Origin: Arenicella chitinivorans
Lineage (GTDB): Bacteria; Pseudomonadota; Gammaproteobacteria; Arenicellales; Arenicellaceae
DNA length: 64,000 nt
Reading direction: 5' to 3'
Assembly (NCBI RefSeq): GCF_014651515.1
Contig: NZ_BMXA01000003.1
Location: 62,001 to 126,000, forward strand
Positions 9,483 through 19,588 of this stretch are shown piece after piece. Every line of letters begins with the position of its first letter. Positions within the stretch are counted from its first letter, which is position 1. The translations under genes were made by a program, and so were the position numbers. The notes under the pieces were generated by a model. The model was not told the DNA's origin, did not search any database, and saw nothing but the letters and a program-made list of their open reading frames with translations.

Positions 9483-11582
9483 CTAGTGGCGCTTTTCGAG
9501 AATTTTAATTTCAGTTTCTTCGTTCAAAAATTTGGGGAACAGCACGCGTTTCTGGTCGGCAGAAATGGTGTAATCCAGTAACGGATTGAGTATCGGAAAC
9601 AAAGTCTGGCGGTCCCGCGTTGTGAGATCGACATAAGTCAAAGTATTGGTATCCTTGCCAATCGATAGGTAATAGAACCCATTACCTCGCGCATACAACG
9701 CATCGTAGGCGTAGATGTTGGTGTCGTTGACCAGTTTTTCGACGGATTTGTCGGCAAGGTTCATTTTCCAGATTCCATTCTGGTGGTATTTGTAAAACAA
9801 CATGTCGCCGTTGGCGGTTAGCTCAGGGGCGTAGCCGCCGCGTTCAGTGATTTTCACTGGTGGCTCGTCGGTACCGAGTTGTTTTTGATAAATCTGCCAG
9901 TCGCCGTCCAGGTCCGAGGAAAAGTAGATCGATTTGCCATCCAGAGCCCAGCTGGCGGTTTCAATGCGTGACGGTTTAGAACCCTGCCAAATAGTTTGAT
10001 AGGTCTTTTTAGCGACATCAAAGGTGTATACCTCGGTGTCGGTCGTGGCCAGTATGGCGCTATCATCGGGTGACCAGCGTAAACGCGGGATTAGTCGTCC
10101 ATCGGTGAATTTACTGAGTTGATACTCTCGTTGCTTACTGCGTATCCAGATCTGGGGTTGCCCGCTTCGCAGCGACATAAACGCGACATCATCGGATTGA
10201 TTAGCAAGTTCGGGATACAAATCAATTTCACTGGATTGAATAACCGGTTCGTCAGTATCGCTAGCATCGGTGGTTCGTCCCCATATATCGACGCCGGTTT
10301 CGCCAGTCATGATGGCCAGTTTGTCTTCCAGCGGGTGTGCGCTGATCGCGTGTAAGGTGTCTGTGTTACCTAGGACTTGTTTGTGAAATTTGTGTTTCAG
10401 GGAATACGCGTAAACATCGTCGTTAGTATCTATGTAGTACAGGAATTCCCCATCATGAGACCAGGCCAGGGCTTTTCGCCAACCGTTCAGGTTGAACAAC
10501 GTGGTGATTCTGGAGGTGTGTAGATCAAGCACATTGACCTCGGTATTGCCCCAATTCAGGTCACGCGAGAAGGCCAGGCGACGATTGTCATTGGATAAGG
10601 CAATATGAATATCGCCTTTTGACTTGCCGCTTTCAGGGTTGGTAAGTTGCTCACGCTTTGAAGTCTTGGTGGAATACTTATAAATTTTGTATGGGTCGAC
10701 CGCCGAGAGTGAATCGGTGTAATAAATATGTTCGTCTTGGCCCCAAACGACTTCGTTGGGTAGGCCGCTGGCGTGGCAGTCGACAACTGGCGATGCCGTG
10801 GTATTGGTATCGTGCGTCTTCATTTGCATTATCTGGCACTGGCCTTCATGGTGCCGTACAAACACCAGAGAGCTGCCGTCAGGTGACCAAGATGGCGAAG
10901 TATCGTCACCACTGCCTCGAGTTAGTTGTCTTGGAGATTCGCCATCCACCGACTGCACGTACAGTTTAAAAAATGGTTCGCCTTTCGCTCGATGGGCATA
11001 CGCAATAGAATGCCCATCGGGCGAGTAAGCTGCGTCTTTTTCCTGCCCAATTAGGACACTGAAGGGTTTAATGAGATTAAACGCCTGCATGGCCCGATAA
11101 CTGGCAGACTTGGTCAAATAATACGATCCAACCCAGAAAGCGGCTACGAGCAATGGAAGGGCGACCAATAACGATAAAAATTTTGTTGAGTTAGTCCGAG
11201 TAGGCGACAGTGGCGCTTGGTCAATACTCGTTTGCGTTGGTGCCGGTGAACCAGGATCTGGCGCCGCTTGCCATTGCACTGGTTGCACTAACTGGTAGCC
11301 TTTTTTTCGTATCGTCGTGATATAGGCATTATTTTGGTCTTCGCCAAGTATTTTGCGAATTTGATTTATGACGCGATAGATCGCATGGTCGCCGACGATA
11401 CGCCCCTTCCAAACATGCTGGATCAGTTCCTCCAGACTCACAACTTTGTTGGGATTCTCAGCGAAATGAACTAGAACAGCCATGGCCAACGGTTCCACGA
11501 AGAACTCTTGGTTCCCGAGAGAAAGCTTGTTCTGGTCCGGCGATATTTGCCAGGCGCCAAGGGTAAAGGGTCTACTCATCAA
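9483..11582 (-). CDS. CadC-like transmembrane regulator with TolB/WD40-type propeller
   Basis: 699 residues. Residues ~5-100 form an OmpR/CadC-type winged helix (LGNQEFFVEPLAMAVLVHF, SLEELIQHVWKGRIVGDHAI, TTIRKKGYQLV). A Pro/Ser/Thr linker leads to one transmembrane helix at ~135-155. The rest is a periplasmic beta-propeller with repeated TolB-type blades (DAAYSPDGHSIAYAH, DTSPSWSPDGSSLVFV, ALAWSHDGEFLYYI, ASWALDGKSIYFSSD). Such proteins sense an envelope signal and bind DNA while in the membrane. It is divergent from the precursor-peptide operon, and its gene is bracketed by two copies of a TCATTA direct repeat, so it is the obvious candidate regulator of both neighbours. Confidence 0.88.
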   Translation of the reverse strand: MMSRPFTLGAWQISPDQNKLSLGNQEFFVEPLAMAVLVHFAENPNKVVSLEELIQHVWKGRIVGDHAIYRVINQIRKILGEDQNNAYITTIRKKGYQLVQPVQWQAAPDPGSPAPTQTSIDQAPLSPTRTNSTKFLSLLVALPLLVAAFWVGSYYLTKSASYRAMQAFNLIKPFSVLIGQEKDAAYSPDGHSIAYAHRAKGEPFFKLYVQSVDGESPRQLTRGSGDDTSPSWSPDGSSLVFVRHHEGQCQIMQMKTHDTNTTASPVVDCHASGLPNEVVWGQDEHIYYTDSLSAVDPYKIYKYSTKTSKREQLTNPESGKSKGDIHIALSNDNRRLAFSRDLNWGNTEVNVLDLHTSRITTLFNLNGWRKALAWSHDGEFLYYIDTNDDVYAYSLKHKFHKQVLGNTDTLHAISAHPLEDKLAIMTGETGVDIWGRTTDASDTDEPVIQSSEIDLYPELANQSDDVAFMSLRSGQPQIWIRSKQREYQLSKFTDGRLIPRLRWSPDDSAILATTDTEVYTFDVAKKTYQTIWQGSKPSRIETASWALDGKSIYFSSDLDGDWQIYQKQLGTDEPPVKITERGGYAPELTANGDMLFYKYHQNGIWKMNLADKSVEKLVNDTNIYAYDALYARGNGFYYLSIGKDTNTLTYVDLTTRDRQTLFPILNPLLDYTISADQKRVLFPKFLNEETEIKILEKRH

Positions 11583-11970: not shown

Positions 11971-12135
11971 ATGAAAAAGTTAGACCAAGAGAAAAAAGTT
12001 GCAGAGTTGTCAATTGAAAACATGGACATCATCACCGAAGTTGACGATACAGCAGGCGCGGCGCTGGCGAACGACGACCAAAATGAGTGGTTTGAGTTTT
12101 GGACGCTGACTAGCGCGCACAACGTTAACAACTAA
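11971..12135 (+). CDS. Candidate RiPP/microcin-like precursor peptide
   Basis: 54 residues. The ATG at 11971 is chosen because GAGG at 11961-11964 sits 6 nt upstream; an in-frame ATG at 11923 has no ribosome site. The leader is charged and helical (KKLDQEKKVAELSIENMDII). A junction DDTAGA at residues 25-30 fits C39-peptidase cleavage after Gly29-Ala30, with Glu23 at -8 and Val24 at -7. The core would be 24 residues, acidic and aromatic (NEWFEFWTLTSAHNVNN at its end), with no Cys, so lanthionines or disulfides are excluded. It precedes genes for an HlyD adaptor, C39 exporter, kinase and hydroxylase. Likely modification targets are Thr45, Thr47, Ser48 (phosphorylation) and His50 or Asn/Asp residues (hydroxylation); these are inference. 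Confidence 0.78.
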   Translation: MKKLDQEKKVAELSIENMDIITEVDDTAGAALANDDQNEWFEFWTLTSAHNVNN

Positions 12136-12169
12136 GCGAGCGTTCTTTACGCTTACGCGCATTGTGATG

Positions 12170-12239
12170 TGGTGGAGCCTTATGCTGGGAAACCTACCCC
12201 GAGATCCTACGCTCTCAGCTTGAGGCTCCACCATCTTTT
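12170..12239 (+). terminator. Strong hairpin between precursor gene and export/modification genes
   Basis: TGGTGGAGCCT (12170-12180) pairs perfectly over 11 bp with AGGCTCCACCA (12223-12233). An inner GCTG/CAGC can extend the structure, and TCTTTT follows. It lies 34 bp after the peptide stop and ends 23 bp before the HlyD gene. This is the expected place for an attenuator that lets the peptide be made in excess over its enzymes; an mRNA-stabilising structure is the alternative. Confidence 0.8.
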
Positions 12240-12262
12240 CGTCCTTATACGAAGCGTGTCTT

Positions 12263-13501
12263 ATGTCTCGAATTAATTCCAAATACGTCGCTGATCGACT
12301 ACCAATTTTCGTTGGGATCAGCATCTTGCTGTCTCCGATCATCGTGATCGTGCTGCTAAATTTTGTCCCTGTAACGGAACAGATTGAACAGGTCGAAGGT
12401 GTGATCTCAAGTGACAGTGGCCCCCGCAGTCTGCGTGCGGAACGTCAGTTTCTGGTTCGTAAAAACCACGTGCGTGTCAATCAACACGTTCAGAAGGGTG
12501 ATCTGTTGGTGGAGTTCGATGACCAAGAAACACGGCGGACCTTGGAGATGCAACGGTTAACTATCGAGAAGTTGGAATTTCAGATCCAGACTCTGGAATC
12601 TCAGCAAGCTCTGATCAGTGAGAATGTGGCATTGTTGGAAGACATTCATGATCAAAAAGCTCAGAAGAAAGTGTTGCTGGCTGCGCAGCAGGGGTCGCAG
12701 AAAAAGTTGCTGGACCAACAAAAAGAATTGTCAGTCAAAGCGGTTACCACGGCTAAGAAGCTGAGTCAGTCCTTAGCAAATGTTGACAGCCGCAGTATTT
12801 CAGAACTGCGTCGTCTGGAGATACTGCGTTCCACCAACAGCACGATTGGTGAATTGCAAACCCTAGAACAAAAACTAAGCGAACAGCCAATTTTGCATGC
12901 CCTAAAAGATATCGAAGCATCAATCGAGCTGTCATCGATTCGAGAAAAGATTGTCTCTTCTAAGATCGAGCTGAATGAGATTGCGACTCAGCTCAATGAC
13001 GCGCAGCAAAAAATTAAAGAAGAACAGCTGGCATATCAAAACCTAATGACTGAGGTTGCGCGGTTTTCGATTCGAGCACCCATAACCGGCACAGTAGCGC
13101 ACTTGTCTGACAACTTGAATAAGTCCAACATGATCAATAAGGATGAAGTGATTTTGATTATCTCACCTGATGTTGAACCAACGCTGAAAGCGCAACTGGC
13201 ACTGACGGATGAGCAGTATAAGGATGCACGCGTCGCACAGAATGTGAATCTAGAAATCTGGGCTTGGAACCATTTTAAACACGGCGTGGTGACTGGCAAG
13301 GTGGTCGCTATTTCACCAGAAAAAGTGACTTCGGAATTGTTAAATAAGCCGAGCTATATCGCCGATGTCGAAATTCTACAGATGCCCAAGGACTACTACA
13401 CTTTGAAACGGGGTTTCAGCCTCAAGGCAAATATCGATATTGGAACCATCAGTCTGCTTGACTACATTCTGAAGAAATTCAACCTAGAAAAACCGGCATA
13501 A
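12263..13501 (+). CDS. HlyD-family periplasmic adaptor of the peptide exporter
   Basis: 412 residues. There is a short cytoplasmic N-terminus, one transmembrane helix at ~14-35, then a lipoyl half-motif (VRVNQHVQKGDLLVEFDDQE, ~70-90). A long coiled coil follows (~90-270, rich in Gln/Lys/Glu/Leu heptads), then the second lipoyl half (FSIRAPITGTVAHL), and a beta-barrel/membrane-proximal domain to the C-terminus. It bridges the inner-membrane ABC exporter to an outer-membrane TolC-type channel, which is not encoded here. The gene is the first after the attenuator and stops 3 bp before the exporter gene. Confidence 0.9.
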   Translation: MSRINSKYVADRLPIFVGISILLSPIIVIVLLNFVPVTEQIEQVEGVISSDSGPRSLRAERQFLVRKNHVRVNQHVQKGDLLVEFDDQETRRTLEMQRLTIEKLEFQIQTLESQQALISENVALLEDIHDQKAQKKVLLAAQQGSQKKLLDQQKELSVKAVTTAKKLSQSLANVDSRSISELRRLEILRSTNSTIGELQTLEQKLSEQPILHALKDIEASIELSSIREKIVSSKIELNEIATQLNDAQQKIKEEQLAYQNLMTEVARFSIRAPITGTVAHLSDNLNKSNMINKDEVILIISPDVEPTLKAQLALTDEQYKDARVAQNVNLEIWAWNHFKHGVVTGKVVAISPEKVTSELLNKPSYIADVEILQMPKDYYTLKRGFSLKANIDIGTISLLDYILKKFNLEKPA

Positions 13502-13504
13502 ACT

Positions 13505-15970
13505 ATGAACGCTTTCGTCGAAAAAATTGTGTGCAGTAATCTAGGTGACAAACAACGCAACACCAATGATTGCGCCGTTAGCGTCGTCAAGACACTGTAC
13601 AACCTGAAAAAGATAAATATTAATCGTAACCAGATTAAGGCATCGCTGACCCTGGATGAAGAGGGCGTTTCTTTCCAAAGTGTCAAAAGTCATCTGGTGG
13701 CCAATGGTTTTGATTGCGATTACATCGCATTAGGAACCCAGTCCAATCCGCTGGCGCAGCTAGCCGACCGAACACCATTGATTGCAATGGTGACTGCTGG
13801 TTTGCGCAAGCACTTTATCTTGATCAAATCGATCTATAAAAACCACGCCTTGGTGATGGACCCAGCAAACGGTGAGTTTCGAAACTGGTCGCTTGAGACG
13901 TTAGAAGCAAAGCTCACGCATTCGACATCTAAGGTCAATGAAGACATCTTAATTGCACATACGCGACAGTACATTCAGGAGCGATTGGATTCGTATGGAC
14001 TGACAGTCGACGTGTCACTCAAAGCCAATTGCATCGAGACCTACAACAAACTAGGCTATTTTGATTGGTTCGCTAAGCAGCATGGGTTTCACGACACGCA
14101 AGATGAAAAAGCATTTCTAGGTTCGCTGATCGAGGCCGACGAAAAGAAGGTCTTGCCATCGCATTTTCGGAAGCTGCGTTACATCAACGACGCCACGAAC
14201 ATCAAAACTCCGGTGTTACTCACGGTCGATCTTGAAAACTACATTCAACCCGATGGTGTGGTGGAAGACAAACAACACAGTTCGGTGATCGCACGTTTGT
14301 TCGGCATCATTTTGCGTTCCAAGAAATCTTCTTGGTTGCTCTCGAGCTTCATGATGGTCGGATTTTTGGCTGCCATGATGACGTACATAGCTGTCTACGC
14401 GAATCAGATTCTGATCGACGAGATTTTTCCTAAGCGGCATATCCTGACCCTGTATTCATTCGCTTTTGTGCTGTTTATTTTTCGTTTTGGCGAGTTCTTT
14501 TTGAACGTACTCAAAACCGCCAGCCAGATATTTATGGATCAGATACTGGACAAATACTTCTATCAAACCTTCAGTCGCCAGTTGTTGTTTTCCAACGAGG
14601 AGTACATTCGAACCTACAGCAAAGGGGACTTGGCGCAGCGCGTCAATGACATTCTAAAAGTTAAGCAATTAGTCTCTAAATTTATCAACGACGTGTTGTT
14701 GAGTTCCGTCATCGTGGTGTTCTCGATTGGCATGTTGTTTTTCTACAATGCCACGCTTGCATTGATCGTATTTGGTATCGGCGCGCTGTATCTGGTGGTG
14801 TTTCGTTACGCGTCTTCCGTGGTGCGCAATTTGGAATCGACCCTGTTCACCGAGAAAGGCAAGTTGTTAAACACTCTGCTCGACAAAGTAGAGGGACATT
14901 CCATTATCCGCCGTTGTCAAAGCGAAACCTTTTTTATGGACGAAGATGCGGTCATCACTGAGAGCTATCTTCGCGTGCAGCAGAAAGCCCGGTTTACTGG
15001 CTTTTTCCTGTCTTACTTTCCACGCTTTATTAGCGTGATTGGTTCCATCGCGATGGTGATGGTGGCTGGGCGCTTACTCATTAACGATAACGCCTTGTCG
15101 CTGGGCCAGGTGCTGGCGGTGATTGGGCTGGCTGAGATTACCTTCAGTGCCATGCGCACGCTCCTTAGTGCACAACTTATGCTGCAGGAAAGTATTGTGG
15201 TGGTGGAGCGATTCTTTGACTTTTGCGGTGCTGAACCGGTGTCCGCGCCCAAAGTTGGTCAACGTAAGTCGATAAGTCGAATCGATATCCGTGACCTGCA
15301 CTACCAGTTTCCGAATCAGAAATTTGCATTGAACATAGATCGGATAGCATTTCACCAAGGTGAAACAGTGTACGTGGATGGCGCCAATGGCTGTGGTAAA
15401 TCCACGATGCTTAGTTTAATTGGTGGCTCGTTACAACCGACGGAGCCGCACACCATTCAGTACGTCGATCCCGACGGCGGGTTCGTTAGTGAGCCAGATG
15501 CGCGAAAAAGTGTTTTGCTGACACGACCTGAAGACAAGATTTTCAATAACACCCTTAATTTTAATATCTATTTGGGACGAGACACGCGCAATTTCGACAT
15601 CTACTCACTGGCAAAGAAAATCGGCGCCGATGACTTTATTTGTCCGAGCCAGCTTCATGTCGATGCGTTGATCAGCGACGGTGGCAGTAATTTATCGGCT
15701 GGGCAGCGTCGTAAAATACTTTTGTTACGGGCCATCGTGAGTGACTGTAGCGTGCTTATTTTCGATGAGATTTTTCGCGGTGTGGATAAAGCGTCGAAGG
15801 AGAAAATCTGTCACTTCTTCAATGAATTTGATAATCGGACCTTGATCTTCACCTCGCATGAGCCGATTGATCAGCTGCGGGTGGATCGCGTGATTTCGAT
15901 GGCTGGTGGTCGTGTCATTGACGACACCGCGAGTCATGACCAAACCATTATTTGTGAGGAGGCGGTGTAG
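13505..15970 (+). CDS. ABC exporter with N-terminal C39 peptidase (PCAT)
   Basis: 821 residues. The N-terminal C39 domain keeps its catalytic residues: Gln17 (oxyanion), Cys23 in NTNDCAVSVV, His103 in LRKHFILI and Asp119 in VMDPANG. So it should both cleave the leader after a Gly-Ala type site and export the core. A ~110-residue linker follows, then a six-helix transmembrane domain (~260-560). The nucleotide-binding domain has Walker A GANGCGKST (~627-635), signature NLSAGQRRKILLL (~729) and Walker B VLIFDEIF (~750) with the catalytic Glu. It sits between the HlyD gene and the kinase gene, which starts 2 bp after its stop. Confidence 0.93.
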   Translation: MNAFVEKIVCSNLGDKQRNTNDCAVSVVKTLYNLKKININRNQIKASLTLDEEGVSFQSVKSHLVANGFDCDYIALGTQSNPLAQLADRTPLIAMVTAGLRKHFILIKSIYKNHALVMDPANGEFRNWSLETLEAKLTHSTSKVNEDILIAHTRQYIQERLDSYGLTVDVSLKANCIETYNKLGYFDWFAKQHGFHDTQDEKAFLGSLIEADEKKVLPSHFRKLRYINDATNIKTPVLLTVDLENYIQPDGVVEDKQHSSVIARLFGIILRSKKSSWLLSSFMMVGFLAAMMTYIAVYANQILIDEIFPKRHILTLYSFAFVLFIFRFGEFFLNVLKTASQIFMDQILDKYFYQTFSRQLLFSNEEYIRTYSKGDLAQRVNDILKVKQLVSKFINDVLLSSVIVVFSIGMLFFYNATLALIVFGIGALYLVVFRYASSVVRNLESTLFTEKGKLLNTLLDKVEGHSIIRRCQSETFFMDEDAVITESYLRVQQKARFTGFFLSYFPRFISVIGSIAMVMVAGRLLINDNALSLGQVLAVIGLAEITFSAMRTLLSAQLMLQESIVVVERFFDFCGAEPVSAPKVGQRKSISRIDIRDLHYQFPNQKFALNIDRIAFHQGETVYVDGANGCGKSTMLSLIGGSLQPTEPHTIQYVDPDGGFVSEPDARKSVLLTRPEDKIFNNTLNFNIYLGRDTRNFDIYSLAKKIGADDFICPSQLHVDALISDGGSNLSAGQRRKILLLRAIVSDCSVLIFDEIFRGVDKASKEKICHFFNEFDNRTLIFTSHEPIDQLRVDRVISMAGGRVIDDTASHDQTIICEEAV

Positions 15971-15972
15971 TT

Positions 15973-17124
15973 ATGCAGCTTTACCAACAACGAGAATCGA
16001 TTCATTTTGAGGTAGCGAATCCAACCAGCGATCAGGTGATTGCGACGGTCACGCGCGGTCCAAGCAAAGCGCGATTTGCAATTAATCGAGCAATCATGAC
16101 TTTTGTGCAGCAGTTCGAAACACCTTGTACCACCGATGAGGCGATCCGCCGCTATTGTAAGCAAGAAAGAATCCAGTTGACCGACGCACGGCAGCGAGAT
16201 CTTCGTGCGTTCGCGCGCCAGATTGCTGCCACACTGCTCCTAAATCCGATTCACACCAACGCCGAAACCGCGGAGCAGTCGATCGCACCGCTCGGATTCG
16301 AGCACCGACGTACGTTTAAAGACAAGCGTTTTGATGCTGTGTGCTTGGTCAACACGCCAGACGGCTTGCAAGTGATCAAGAATATAAAAGAACAAGTCGT
16401 TACGCAGTCGGCACGTCGTGACATTCTGCGTGATCTCGAGAATGAGTTTCGGGTGCTCACGCGTCTAGACGGTGTGTCTGGGGTTGTTGCTGCGCGGACT
16501 TTCTGTGCTACCTCGCCGGCCTATTTCGCAATGGACTATGTGTGCGGAGATCGGTTGGACAAATACGTGCGTTCGCAGCCATTATGTTTGCTGCAGCGTT
16601 TGGACATGGCGATGCAGCTATTGAGGTTGTTTGCAGAGATCCACGACGCCGGTGTATTGCACGGTGATGTTCATCTTGGCAACTTTATGTGTTCGCCAAC
16701 ACGGCAGATAACCGTTATCGATTTCGGCTGTGCCAGCATGCAGGATTCAGACTACCGTCCTAGCGGTGGTGCAACACCACATTTTGCGCCACCCGAGCGT
16801 GCTTCCGAGAGCTGGACCCGGGTGTGCCATTCACAACCAACGCGAGCAAGCGAGTGTTACCAGCTAGGTATTGTGATTGCCTATGTGATGACCGGCACAC
16901 TGCCGTTTCGGGGTAAAACCTATCGCGAATTGCACCGTGCCATTATGTCCGCTGAATATAGGCTGCCAACAACAACGCCGGATGGGCAGCCGATTCCGCC
17001 AGCGCTGCACAATCTGATTGGCGACATGTTGCAGCGAAACCCCGATGACCGACCATCCGACCTGATGCGTCTGGCTCACCAATTTCAATCTTATGCAAAC
17101 CAGGAGAGTGCCCATGTTATTTAG
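15973..17124 (+). CDS. Protein kinase-fold enzyme with N-terminal RRE/PqqD-like region
   Basis: 383 residues. The kinase core runs from ~108 to 375: Lys136 in LQVIKNIK, a helix-C Glu near 156-158, catalytic loop HGDVHLGN (230-237, Asp232 and Asn237), DFG at 250-252, and the activation-end APPERAS. All catalytic residues are present, so it should be active. Residues ~10-92 have the strand-strand-helix-helix pattern of PqqD-like RiPP recognition elements (FAINRAIMTFVQQF, CTTDEAIRRYC, LRAFARQIAATLLL). That call is from pattern only. There is no lyase or cyclase domain, so it is not a class III/IV lanthipeptide synthetase. Its last 11 bases overlap the hydroxylase gene. Confidence 0.82.
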   Translation: MQLYQQRESIHFEVANPTSDQVIATVTRGPSKARFAINRAIMTFVQQFETPCTTDEAIRRYCKQERIQLTDARQRDLRAFARQIAATLLLNPIHTNAETAEQSIAPLGFEHRRTFKDKRFDAVCLVNTPDGLQVIKNIKEQVVTQSARRDILRDLENEFRVLTRLDGVSGVVAARTFCATSPAYFAMDYVCGDRLDKYVRSQPLCLLQRLDMAMQLLRLFAEIHDAGVLHGDVHLGNFMCSPTRQITVIDFGCASMQDSDYRPSGGATPHFAPPERASESWTRVCHSQPTRASECYQLGIVIAYVMTGTLPFRGKTYRELHRAIMSAEYRLPTTTPDGQPIPPALHNLIGDMLQRNPDDRPSDLMRLAHQFQSYANQESAHVI

Positions 17125-18307
17125 TCAACTTGATGACTCGACACCGGACAATGGTGTTGTCAGTGATTTCACCCTAGAAAGTGTGCTGCGGCCGCTGACC
17201 GCACAGGACTTTTTTGATGATTATTGGGAGAAAAAGCCCTTTATCATTAAACGCAATAACCCAGATTACTATAAAGAGATTCTGAATCTAGAGACCTTGA
17301 ACGAAGTGTTTGCTTCTCGTATGTTTCGAGCGTCGGACATGCGTATTTTTAATAATGGTGAGAAGCGTGAATTCCAAGCATTTTCGAAGAAGAACAAAGC
17401 CAACGGCAACGTGGTGTTGAAAGAATTTGAAAATGGTTCGACAATTATTTTTGAAAACTTGGATCGCAATCATCTGCAGCTCGCCAAATTGATTCGAAAC
17501 CTTGAAAATGAACTGCATATTGATTTGCGTACCAATGTGTATCTCACGCCAGCGCAGGCAACCGGCTTCAAGGCACATTGGGATACACACTGTGTGCTGG
17601 TGATGCAGGTTCACGGCACCAAGCAATGGGAGATTTATGATAACCCGGTACCACTGCCCACAGAGAATCAAAAATACGACCCAGAGACCGGCGCGAAGGC
17701 GCAACACATTACCTCATTTCTAATGGAAGAAGGTGACATTGCTTATATTCCGCGCGGCTTCGTGCACAAAGCCAGTGCGCAGGACCAAGCTAGCTTGCAC
17801 GTGACTATGGGGCTGCGTCCCTTGGCGGTAAAAGACTTGTTGCGTGAGGTATTAAACAGTGTTTGCAAACAACATGTCGATCTTCGGCATGGTTTATTAC
17901 CCAAAGGCGAATTTGATGATGAAGCCTTGCGTGCCCAGTTGGTTGAGATCATGCAGCAGGCCGACTTATCTAAGTACCGCGAGCGGCTATACAAGAAATA
18001 TATTCTAGAACGGTATCCGATTCTGGACACGCAACTCAGCAGTTTGGTCAAAAATAATGTGATCGAGCAAGAAACTGATTGCCAAGTGAAACCCCACATG
18101 GTGTGGAAAGTGTTCGAAAACGAGTCGCAGTTGTCACTGTTGTTCGACGGTAAGTCAATGCATTTTCCGAAAGCCATGAAACCAAGCCTGACGTTCTTCG
18201 AACAATGTCGAAAGTTCTGCGTTGATCAAATTCCGGGTCTTGATCAAAAGAGTCGTCAAATATTAGCACAGCGTCTGGTGCATGAAGGCTTTCTAGAGGT
18301 GCATTAG
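17114..18307 (+). CDS. JmjC-domain Fe(II)/2-oxoglutarate hydroxylase, ribosomal-oxygenase type
   Basis: 397 residues from ATG 17114, chosen over an upstream in-frame ATG at 17093 because AGGAGAG at 17102-17108 is correctly spaced. The cupin/JmjC core carries the iron triad His155-x-Asp157 (FKAHWDTHCVLVM) and His218 (IPRGFVHKA). The basic residue in GTKQWEIY probably contacts 2-oxoglutarate. The C-terminal ~100 residues look like the winged-helix domain of the YcfD/MINA53/NO66 group, which hydroxylates Arg or His of ribosomal proteins. Here it lies inside a peptide export operon, so the precursor peptide is the more likely substrate. Overlap with the kinase gene implies coupled translation. 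Confidence 0.87.
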   Translation: MLFSQLDDSTPDNGVVSDFTLESVLRPLTAQDFFDDYWEKKPFIIKRNNPDYYKEILNLETLNEVFASRMFRASDMRIFNNGEKREFQAFSKKNKANGNVVLKEFENGSTIIFENLDRNHLQLAKLIRNLENELHIDLRTNVYLTPAQATGFKAHWDTHCVLVMQVHGTKQWEIYDNPVPLPTENQKYDPETGAKAQHITSFLMEEGDIAYIPRGFVHKASAQDQASLHVTMGLRPLAVKDLLREVLNSVCKQHVDLRHGLLPKGEFDDEALRAQLVEIMQQADLSKYRERLYKKYILERYPILDTQLSSLVKNNVIEQETDCQVKPHMVWKVFENESQLSLLFDGKSMHFPKAMKPSLTFFEQCRKFCVDQIPGLDQKSRQILAQRLVHEGFLEVH

Positions 18308-18310
18308 CGT

Positions 18311-19588
18311 ATGGTTCGGCGCTGGCGTCGTATAAGTATGTGGATCGGGTTGTCCCTCATTATCATCGCCCTGACGTGGTTTGTCCTTGCCATGTCACGG
18401 GCGGTGGTGGTGTTCACAGAAGGGGGTATTTATCAACGCATCATGATTCCGGTTGGGGCAAAGTTTCTAGCCTGGCGTGCAGACTTGGCAATCCATGCAG
18501 AGCAACCCGATTTGCGTATGCCACAAGGACCAATTGTGGCACCACGCGCGGATAATCGCTATGAAGTTTCTTGGGTGTGTGGTCAAGATGTACAGCGTGA
18601 ACTGGTGACAGCAACCGAAATTGACCTCCAATGTCGAGATCATCGGCGACATATTCATTGGATGACAACACAAGCAACACAGCGGCCCTTCAGCTCAGAC
18701 AACAACGTAGCCGTGATCAGCGATTTAGAGGGGAATTTGGCGTATTTTCTGGATTGGGGTAAACACGCTGGTGTATTAGATGATGCTGGGCGATGGGCCT
18801 TTGGAGATGGTCAGCTGGTGATTCTTGGTGACAGCGTGGATCGTGGTCGCCAGGTTTTCGATTTGCTGTGGAAATTGCATGCACTTGAATATGAAGCAAC
18901 CATCGCGGGTGGTGCGGTACATGTAATTTTAGGCAATCATGAACAGTACGTGTTGCAAGGCCGACTCTCGAGTGTGGAACCGGAACACCTTTGGGCCACT
19001 GAACAAATGATGCCGTATGCGGATGCCTGGTCTGCTCAAACGGTGCTTGGTCGGTGGTTGCGCAGTAAACCAATTATGCTGACGCTGGGCGACACGCTAT
19101 TCGTGCATGGTGGCATCAGTCCCAGTGCATTACAGCTGGGTTTGACGGTGGAACAGTGGAATCAGCGGCATCGCAGTGCCCTTATGCTCAACAATCATGA
19201 TCCTCAAGTATTCGGGCCAACGTCGCCGACGCAATACCGTGGTTACTTATATGCAACCGACGCCTATTCGCTGGCAACCCAATCGCACATTGAAGCAACG
19301 TTAACACAGTTCGGTGTCCAACGAATCGTGGTTGGCCATACGCAGACAGAGGCTCTAACACCGCGTTTTAATAATCGAGTCTTCGCAATCGAGCTGGGCG
19401 AACACGCTGGCGACTATTTAATGATCATGAATCATGAGCCGGTGGTGAAGCAGAGCGAACTACGCAAACAGCGATTTCGTGACCCCAATACACATCAGCG
19501 ACAATTTGAATTACTTAACCGCTCAGACTGGCGAGCATTTTTTGGTGTGTTTATTACGGCAGGTCGATCTGTTTTTGCGTCTATGTGA
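18311..19588 (+). CDS. Membrane-anchored PPP-type metallophosphatase, catalytic domain probably periplasmic
   Basis: 425 residues. A basic N-terminus (RRWRR) precedes a transmembrane helix at ~11-29, so the bulk should lie outside the cytoplasm. After a ~100-residue extra domain come the PPP motifs: SDLEGN (Asp138, Glu140), GDSVDRG (172-178), LGNHE (207-211), VHGG (265-268) and VVGHTQ (340-345). The first motif has Glu where the family normally has His (DxH), which may alter metal choice or activity. The start is 3 bp after the hydroxylase stop, so it is the last gene of the five-gene block. A peptide-phosphate substrate is an inference from context. Confidence 0.83.
   Translation: MVRRWRRISMWIGLSLIIIALTWFVLAMSRAVVVFTEGGIYQRIMIPVGAKFLAWRADLAIHAEQPDLRMPQGPIVAPRADNRYEVSWVCGQDVQRELVTATEIDLQCRDHRRHIHWMTTQATQRPFSSDNNVAVISDLEGNLAYFLDWGKHAGVLDDAGRWAFGDGQLVILGDSVDRGRQVFDLLWKLHALEYEATIAGGAVHVILGNHEQYVLQGRLSSVEPEHLWATEQMMPYADAWSAQTVLGRWLRSKPIMLTLGDTLFVHGGISPSALQLGLTVEQWNQRHRSALMLNNHDPQVFGPTSPTQYRGYLYATDAYSLATQSHIEATLTQFGVQRIVVGHTQTEALTPRFNNRVFAIELGEHAGDYLMIMNHEPVVKQSELRKQRFRDPNTHQRQFELLNRSDWRAFFGVFITAGRSVFASM

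Follow-up and report, generated by a model that had tools for sequence, protein, structure and literature searches.

When a protein kinase gene lies directly behind the gene of a peptide exporter, what does the kinase phosphorylate, and how does it find its substrate? The gene in question lies in a 64,000-nucleotide stretch of Arenicella chitinivorans DNA (the window), and the preliminary description had proposed that it encodes an RRE fused to a stand-alone kinase. Both halves of that proposal are supported by our sequence comparisons. RREs serve as docking domains for many RiPP enzymes, and the genes around the kinase run in the order candidate precursor, hairpin, HlyD, PCAT, RRE-kinase, JmjC, phosphatase (Table 1), with gaps of 3, 2, -32 and 3 bp between the five large genes. 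We read this as a RiPP operon in which a leader-guided peptide kinase is the class-defining enzyme and whose secreted product is a linear phospho-RiPP, with a probability of roughly 70%. The strongest support for a leader-guided kinase is this setting, which the preliminary description missed: a candidate precursor, a leader-cleaving exporter, two further modifying enzymes and synteny in Bacteroidota.

Table 1. Positions of the operon's features within the window
Feature	Coordinates	Strand	Details
Candidate precursor peptide gene	11971..12135	+	54 codons; AGAGG a few nt before the ATG; first gene ahead of the transporter genes
Long RNA hairpin between precursor gene and hlyD	12169..12234	+	fold of 12136-12262
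HlyD-family periplasmic adaptor (type I secretion)	12263..13501	+	PF13437 E 2e-7; TIGR01843 E 1e-20
PCAT, C39 peptidase and ABC exporter	13505..15970	+	PF03412 E 9e-12; PF00664 E 1e-17; PF00005 E 5e-15
Stand-alone RRE-kinase	15973..17124	+	383 aa; PF00069 (Pfam Pkinase) E 1.4e-24, from residue 134
RRE/PqqD-like N-terminal domain of the kinase	15973..16260	+	profile-profile match to PqqD family
Kinase domain of the RRE-kinase	16315-17088 (residues ~115-372)	+
JmjC 2-oxoglutarate/Fe hydroxylase, MINA53/NO66-like	17093..18307	+	PF08007 E 6e-26
Membrane-anchored PPP-type phosphatase	18311..19588	+	PF00149 E 1e-11; N-terminal TM helix

The kinase open reading frame is a real gene. It is preceded by GAGGAGG, starts 2 bp past the PCAT stop codon and overlaps the next gene at its end. 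We found the catalytic set of a Hanks-type kinase in full, with Lys136 in a VIK motif (the VAIK lysine), the alpha-C Glu158, HGD at 230-232 (HxD), Asn237, DFG at 250-252 and PPE at 273-275 (PPE/APE); the complete core that had been claimed from Lys136, Asp232, Asn237 and the DFG is thus confirmed. The Gly-rich loop is without the usual glycines of GxGxxG, both here and in all aligned relatives. The best NCBIfam match of the kinase part, ahead of signalling kinases, is the class IV lanthionine synthetase LanL (E 9e-28), although the match stays far below the cut-off of that model. The RRE-kinase is the single copy of its kind in the window genome. We found no homologue in the genus sample or the order sample, and a scan of the genome contigs with the whole kinase as query returned nothing useful.

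The N-terminus had been called RRE/PqqD-like. We built a profile from the window sequence and seven homologous N-termini from kinases of other genomes, and compared it with 27 PqqD-family proteins from related genomes. The two aligned in register over 98 columns, the full length of the beta-beta-beta and three-helix PqqD alignment, with a probability of 96.8% and a score of 57.8, as against a maximum of 15.1 among 200 column shuffles and 10.6 for the reversed profile, and so the earlier call holds. The window N-terminus alone scored 24.05 against the PqqD profile (maximum of 200 shuffles, 19.9; probability 35%). Its identity to the other members is 12-19%, residues 1 to about 110 by themselves gave no convincing match in Pfam, NCBIfam or the PDB, and a single-sequence search with the N-terminus in the class sample gave nothing useful. 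When all eight N-termini were scanned singly against Pfam, PF05402 (PqqD) matched two of them (best E 1.9e-4), and every other family matched once, with E > 0.05. Likewise, three of the six weak NCBIfam matches of the N-termini are PqqD-family chaperones, and a search of the whole PDB with the profile returned a single, weak match (E 1.2), to TbiB1, the RRE of a lasso peptide system. Membership of the N-terminal ~95 residues in the PqqD/RRE family is therefore well supported by these comparisons; leader guidance of the kinase is a well-founded prediction. Two other weak matches from the N-terminus and kinase searches, L038 and L040, are unrelated proteins.

The candidate precursor at the head of the operon reads MKKLDQEKKVAELSIENMDIITEVDDTAGA followed by ALANDDQNEWFEFWTLTSAHNVNN, with C39 cleavage probable near the GA. 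Its core (...EWFEFWTLTSAHNVNN) is acidic and has only three Ser/Thr and no Cys. Among the 570 window ORFs of 30-130 aa, it ranks first by local leader score (40, against 39 for the next; shuffle p ~0.001), and 9 of 18 positions are identical between its leader and that of the Bacteroidota small ORF L155 over ELS..E.(I/M)D....VD..AG. With an HMM of five leaders it does not stand out, coming at rank 8 with an E value of 13. The leaders of the Bacteroidota small ORFs end in GG or AG and that of the window in AGA, and the similarity between them is marginal; position and ribosome-binding site weigh more in the precursor call than sequence does. The fold of the region between this gene and hlyD has an energy of -52.9 kcal/mol (z -5.5), which none of 200 shuffles equalled. 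A terminator scan at the hairpin found no classical T-tract terminator. The hairpin is possibly an attenuator, and it could limit read-through so that the precursor is made in excess of the enzymes. Near the operon, we found neither a promoter consensus nor a terminator. A divergent gene for a CadC-like regulator with a winged helix and a PD40 beta-propeller (window 9483-11582, minus strand) adjoins the operon and may control it.

The PCAT retains Gln17, Cys23, His103 and Asp119 as well as Walker A, and thus the catalytic residues of its C39 part and the ABC motif; it should cut off the leader and export the core. The closest PDB entries to the JmjC protein are the human histidyl hydroxylases MINA53 (E 6e-26) and NO66 (E 1e-16), followed by YxbC (E 7e-14), and the protein keeps HxD at 162-164 and the distal His225. 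Its open reading frame overlaps the end of the kinase gene (17093-17124); a second ATG at 17114 stands behind AGGAGAG and is plausibly the likelier start. In a test of the JmjC C-terminus for an RRE, the score of 15.7 was below the null maximum of 17.2, and by this measure we rejected it as one. JmjC proteins are known as RiPP hydroxylases from the biphenomycin pathways (BpmG and BipG; PMC12257519, PMC12707348), and one survey describes RREs fused to JmjC (PF08007) proteins, with bacterial relatives in RiPP-like contexts (PMC12710340). By analogy with both, the window JmjC protein is plausible as a tailoring enzyme. In a sister species of the same genus (L041, G002:C69, 1038-6148), a lasso-type cyclase, an HprK-related kinase and a fusion of JmjC and sulfotransferase-like parts are encoded in a row, which is another pairing of kinase and JmjC in a RiPP-like cluster.

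The phosphatase has its best match in Shewanella psychrophilic phosphatase I (2z72/1v73; E 1e-43), which the PDB lists as a protein-tyrosine phosphatase. GDSVDRG and GNHE are kept, whereas the first metal motif reads SDLEG in place of the SDVHG of the Shewanella enzyme; given this change, activity should not be assumed and is here a prediction. The protein has a hydrophobic stretch near residues 10-35, with RRWRR ahead of the helix, and if this single N-terminal helix has the usual orientation, the catalytic domain is probably periplasmic.

We then asked whether the same arrangement occurs elsewhere. Stand-alone kinases with the same N-terminal domain are present in four Bacteroidota genomes (L050, L154, L155, L156), all found with the kinase query alone. 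An early-alignment scan found L050, a Segetibacter contig on which a 398-aa stand-alone kinase is followed by PCAT, HlyD and TolC. A two-sequence profile of the window kinase and L050 then found three more among 298 genomes of the Segetibacter order, with E values of 1e-55 to 1e-62, as against 1e-27 or weaker for all other kinases of that sample. In all three Bacteroidota loci with enough DNA beyond the RRE-kinase, the next genes downstream encode PCAT and HlyD; none of the other 79 loci from the kinase scan matches the whole PCAT or its C39 part. The window PCAT is 28-29% identical along its length to the PCATs beside the Bacteroidota RRE-kinases (28% for that of L050). Directly upstream of the kinase, all four Bacteroidota loci carry a small ORF with a GG/AG-ending leader and a Ser/Thr-rich core. 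These cores are basic, in contrast to the acidic core of the window; that of L154, KHGKTKTRTKTKTKTRTRTRTRKHGTKYY, is a (K/R)T repeat without Cys. L156 has two such ORFs with like leaders and unlike cores, a pattern that RiPP precursors would be expected to show. The genes beside the Bacteroidota RRE-kinases include no lanthionine lyase or cyclase, and the JmjC and phosphatase genes are not part of these clusters. Extending the search to a larger sample of Bacteroidia and to a phylum sample yielded generic kinases only, so the family looks rare. One candidate, L217, was rejected as a generic kinase. Viral contigs and the phage and plasmid collections held no stand-alone member.

A homologous N-terminal RRE-like domain also occurs in kinases that are fused to LanC. 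Such RRE-kinase-LanC proteins are encoded in Cupriavidus (L042), Paenibacillus (L048) and an Acidobacteriota MAG (L078), and in all three loci a conserved ~390-aa companion protein adjoins the fusion gene. Because of the LanC fusion and this companion gene, these loci are probably a lanthipeptide system. In a tree of kinase domains, from which the N-terminus was left out, stand-alone and LanC-fused RRE-kinases form one group (96/95), to which none of 17 generic kinases belongs; the branch of the window kinase is long, and its exact place inside the group is unsure. On the Cupriavidus oxalaticus plasmid NZ_CP038636.1 (L042, 9824-19009), the RRE-like domain is found on the kinase-LanC protein and also on a neighbouring 2OG-Fe(II) oxygenase, and thus the domain seems to have spread together with peptide-modifying enzymes. 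The same region, where the record is unannotated, also holds a LanB dehydratase and a cupin/JmjC protein. On the Paenibacillus peoriae plasmid NZ_CP011513.1 (L048, 6801-11403), the RRE-kinase-LanC gene has upstream of it an ORF in which three almost identical internal repeats end in Cys-containing segments (DCGITCLASCG), likely a multi-core lanthipeptide precursor.

The sequences themselves show the domain identities, the catalytic residues, the layout of the operon, the conserved synteny and the absence of LanC from the genome. From sequence and synteny we infer that the leader is bound and that the peptide is phosphorylated and hydroxylated, and likewise in which direction and for what purpose the phosphatase acts. 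In the mechanism that we propose, the candidate precursor (11971-12135) would dock with its leader on the RRE domain, its core would thereby be presented to the Ser/Thr kinase part of the fusion, and Thr/Ser of the core would be phosphorylated. Hydroxylation of a core residue, with His, Asn or an aromatic residue as candidates, is the probable task of the JmjC enzyme. The C39 domain of the PCAT would cut the leader, and PCAT, HlyD and a TolC encoded elsewhere would export the phosphorylated linear peptide. We did not find LanC in the window genome, nor in three of the four Bacteroidota genomes. As LanC is missing from the genome and Cys from the core, we expect the phosphate to remain on the exported peptide and not to be eliminated; these absences, together with the Cys-free core of L154, make lanthionine rings unlikely. 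A phosphatase facing the periplasm probably strips the phosphate, either for self-protection, acting on returning peptide, or for activation; the sequence does not decide between these. More tentatively, and with considerable doubt, we suggest that the operon represents a new class of RiPPs, whose hallmark would be a Hanks-type kinase that carries a fused RRE of its own. In its window version, a switch of phosphorylation by the cytoplasmic kinase and dephosphorylation by the periplasmic phosphatase would protect the producer or arm the peptide, and a JmjC enzyme of the ribosomal-oxygenase type would add a hydroxyl.

Other explanations of the kinase have to be weighed against this one. As in lanthipeptide classes III-V, the kinase step could be only the first half of a dehydration that yields dehydroamino acids, the phosphate being eliminated afterwards by an unlinked lyase. 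Among annotated kinases, LanL/LanKC are indeed nearest, and the kinase domain groups with the RRE-kinase-LanC proteins that adjoin the ~390-aa companion. However, a search of the window genome with a profile of that companion, run without a positive control, was empty, LanC was not found there, the window core has no Cys, and the operon holds a phosphatase rather than a lyase, all of which makes this explanation quite improbable.

Hanks-type kinases usually signal, and a regulatory kinase that phosphorylates the exporter, the JmjC protein or another protein and so controls secretion, with the RRE-like domain merely sensing the leader, would agree with the phosphatase in the operon and with the ability of the PqqD fold to serve as an adaptor. 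Yet in the Bacteroidota clusters the kinase is kept although neither a phosphatase nor any other obvious target accompanies it, and the cores of the small ORFs there are rich in Ser/Thr, one being a (K/R)T repeat; we regard regulation as unlikely. A third explanation, in which the N-terminus is what remains of a winged helix and has nothing to do with leader binding, and the kinase lies beside the PCAT by chance, is very improbable. The lack of a database match for the window N-terminus alone and its low identity to the other members would fit such a remnant, but the in-register profile match stands far above its null, Pfam, NCBIfam and the PDB point independently to PqqD/RRE, and the synteny recurs in all three complete distant loci.

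The leader-guided peptide kinase that we favor can be compared with known systems. By outcome, the closest are the Linear Polyphosphorylated Peptides (LPP; LppA/LppK/LppB; PMC13381572), which, like the product proposed here, are RRE-dependent, kinase-made linear phosphopeptide RiPPs without a cyclase and with a dedicated exporter. The LPP systems of Bacillota have an HprK-like kinase, a discrete RRE, an SpI-type leader peptidase and an MsbA-like pump (PMC13381572), whereas in the window a Hanks-type kinase carries the RRE as a fused domain, the C39 domain of the PCAT is the peptidase, and a JmjC protein and a phosphatase are added. The window operon has no HprK-like kinase, discrete RRE or SpI peptidase, and such differences in the fold of the kinase, the arrangement of the RRE and the peptidase exclude it from the LPP. 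The paeninodin-type lasso peptides are also phosphorylated RiPPs with RRE-dependent maturation, but they differ in having an HprK-like kinase, a lasso cyclase and B1/B2 proteins, none of which is encoded in the window operon.

The synthetases of lanthipeptide classes III, IV and V (LanKC, LanL, LxmK) resemble the proposed window system in that a Ser/Thr kinase acts on a RiPP precursor, and LanL/LanKC are the nearest RiPP models of its kinase domain. No RRE is identifiable in class II-V lanthipeptide enzymes (PMC10604976). The window kinase, unlike these synthetases, has an RRE, and its operon has no phospho-Ser/Thr lyase; the LanC cyclase is missing from the window genome and Cys from the window and L154 cores. 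By the tests made, it is not a lanthipeptide synthetase. The RRE-kinase-LanC proteins resemble it in their homologous RRE-like domain and kinase, and differ in the LanC fusion and the companion. The word kinase is absent from the main texts of two RRE surveys (PMC7470986, PMC12710340), and we did not find the combination of precursor, exporter, RRE-kinase, hydroxylase and phosphatase genes in the open-access papers that we searched.

If the proposed reading is true, the built-in docking domain would make this peptide kinase a programmable one, in which the leader picks the substrate and the core is free to vary. Phosphorylated linear RiPPs would then be made by two unrelated routes, this one and that of the LPPs, and the operon would offer a testable case of a kinase/phosphatase pair that serves the self-protection of the producer or the activation of a secreted peptide.
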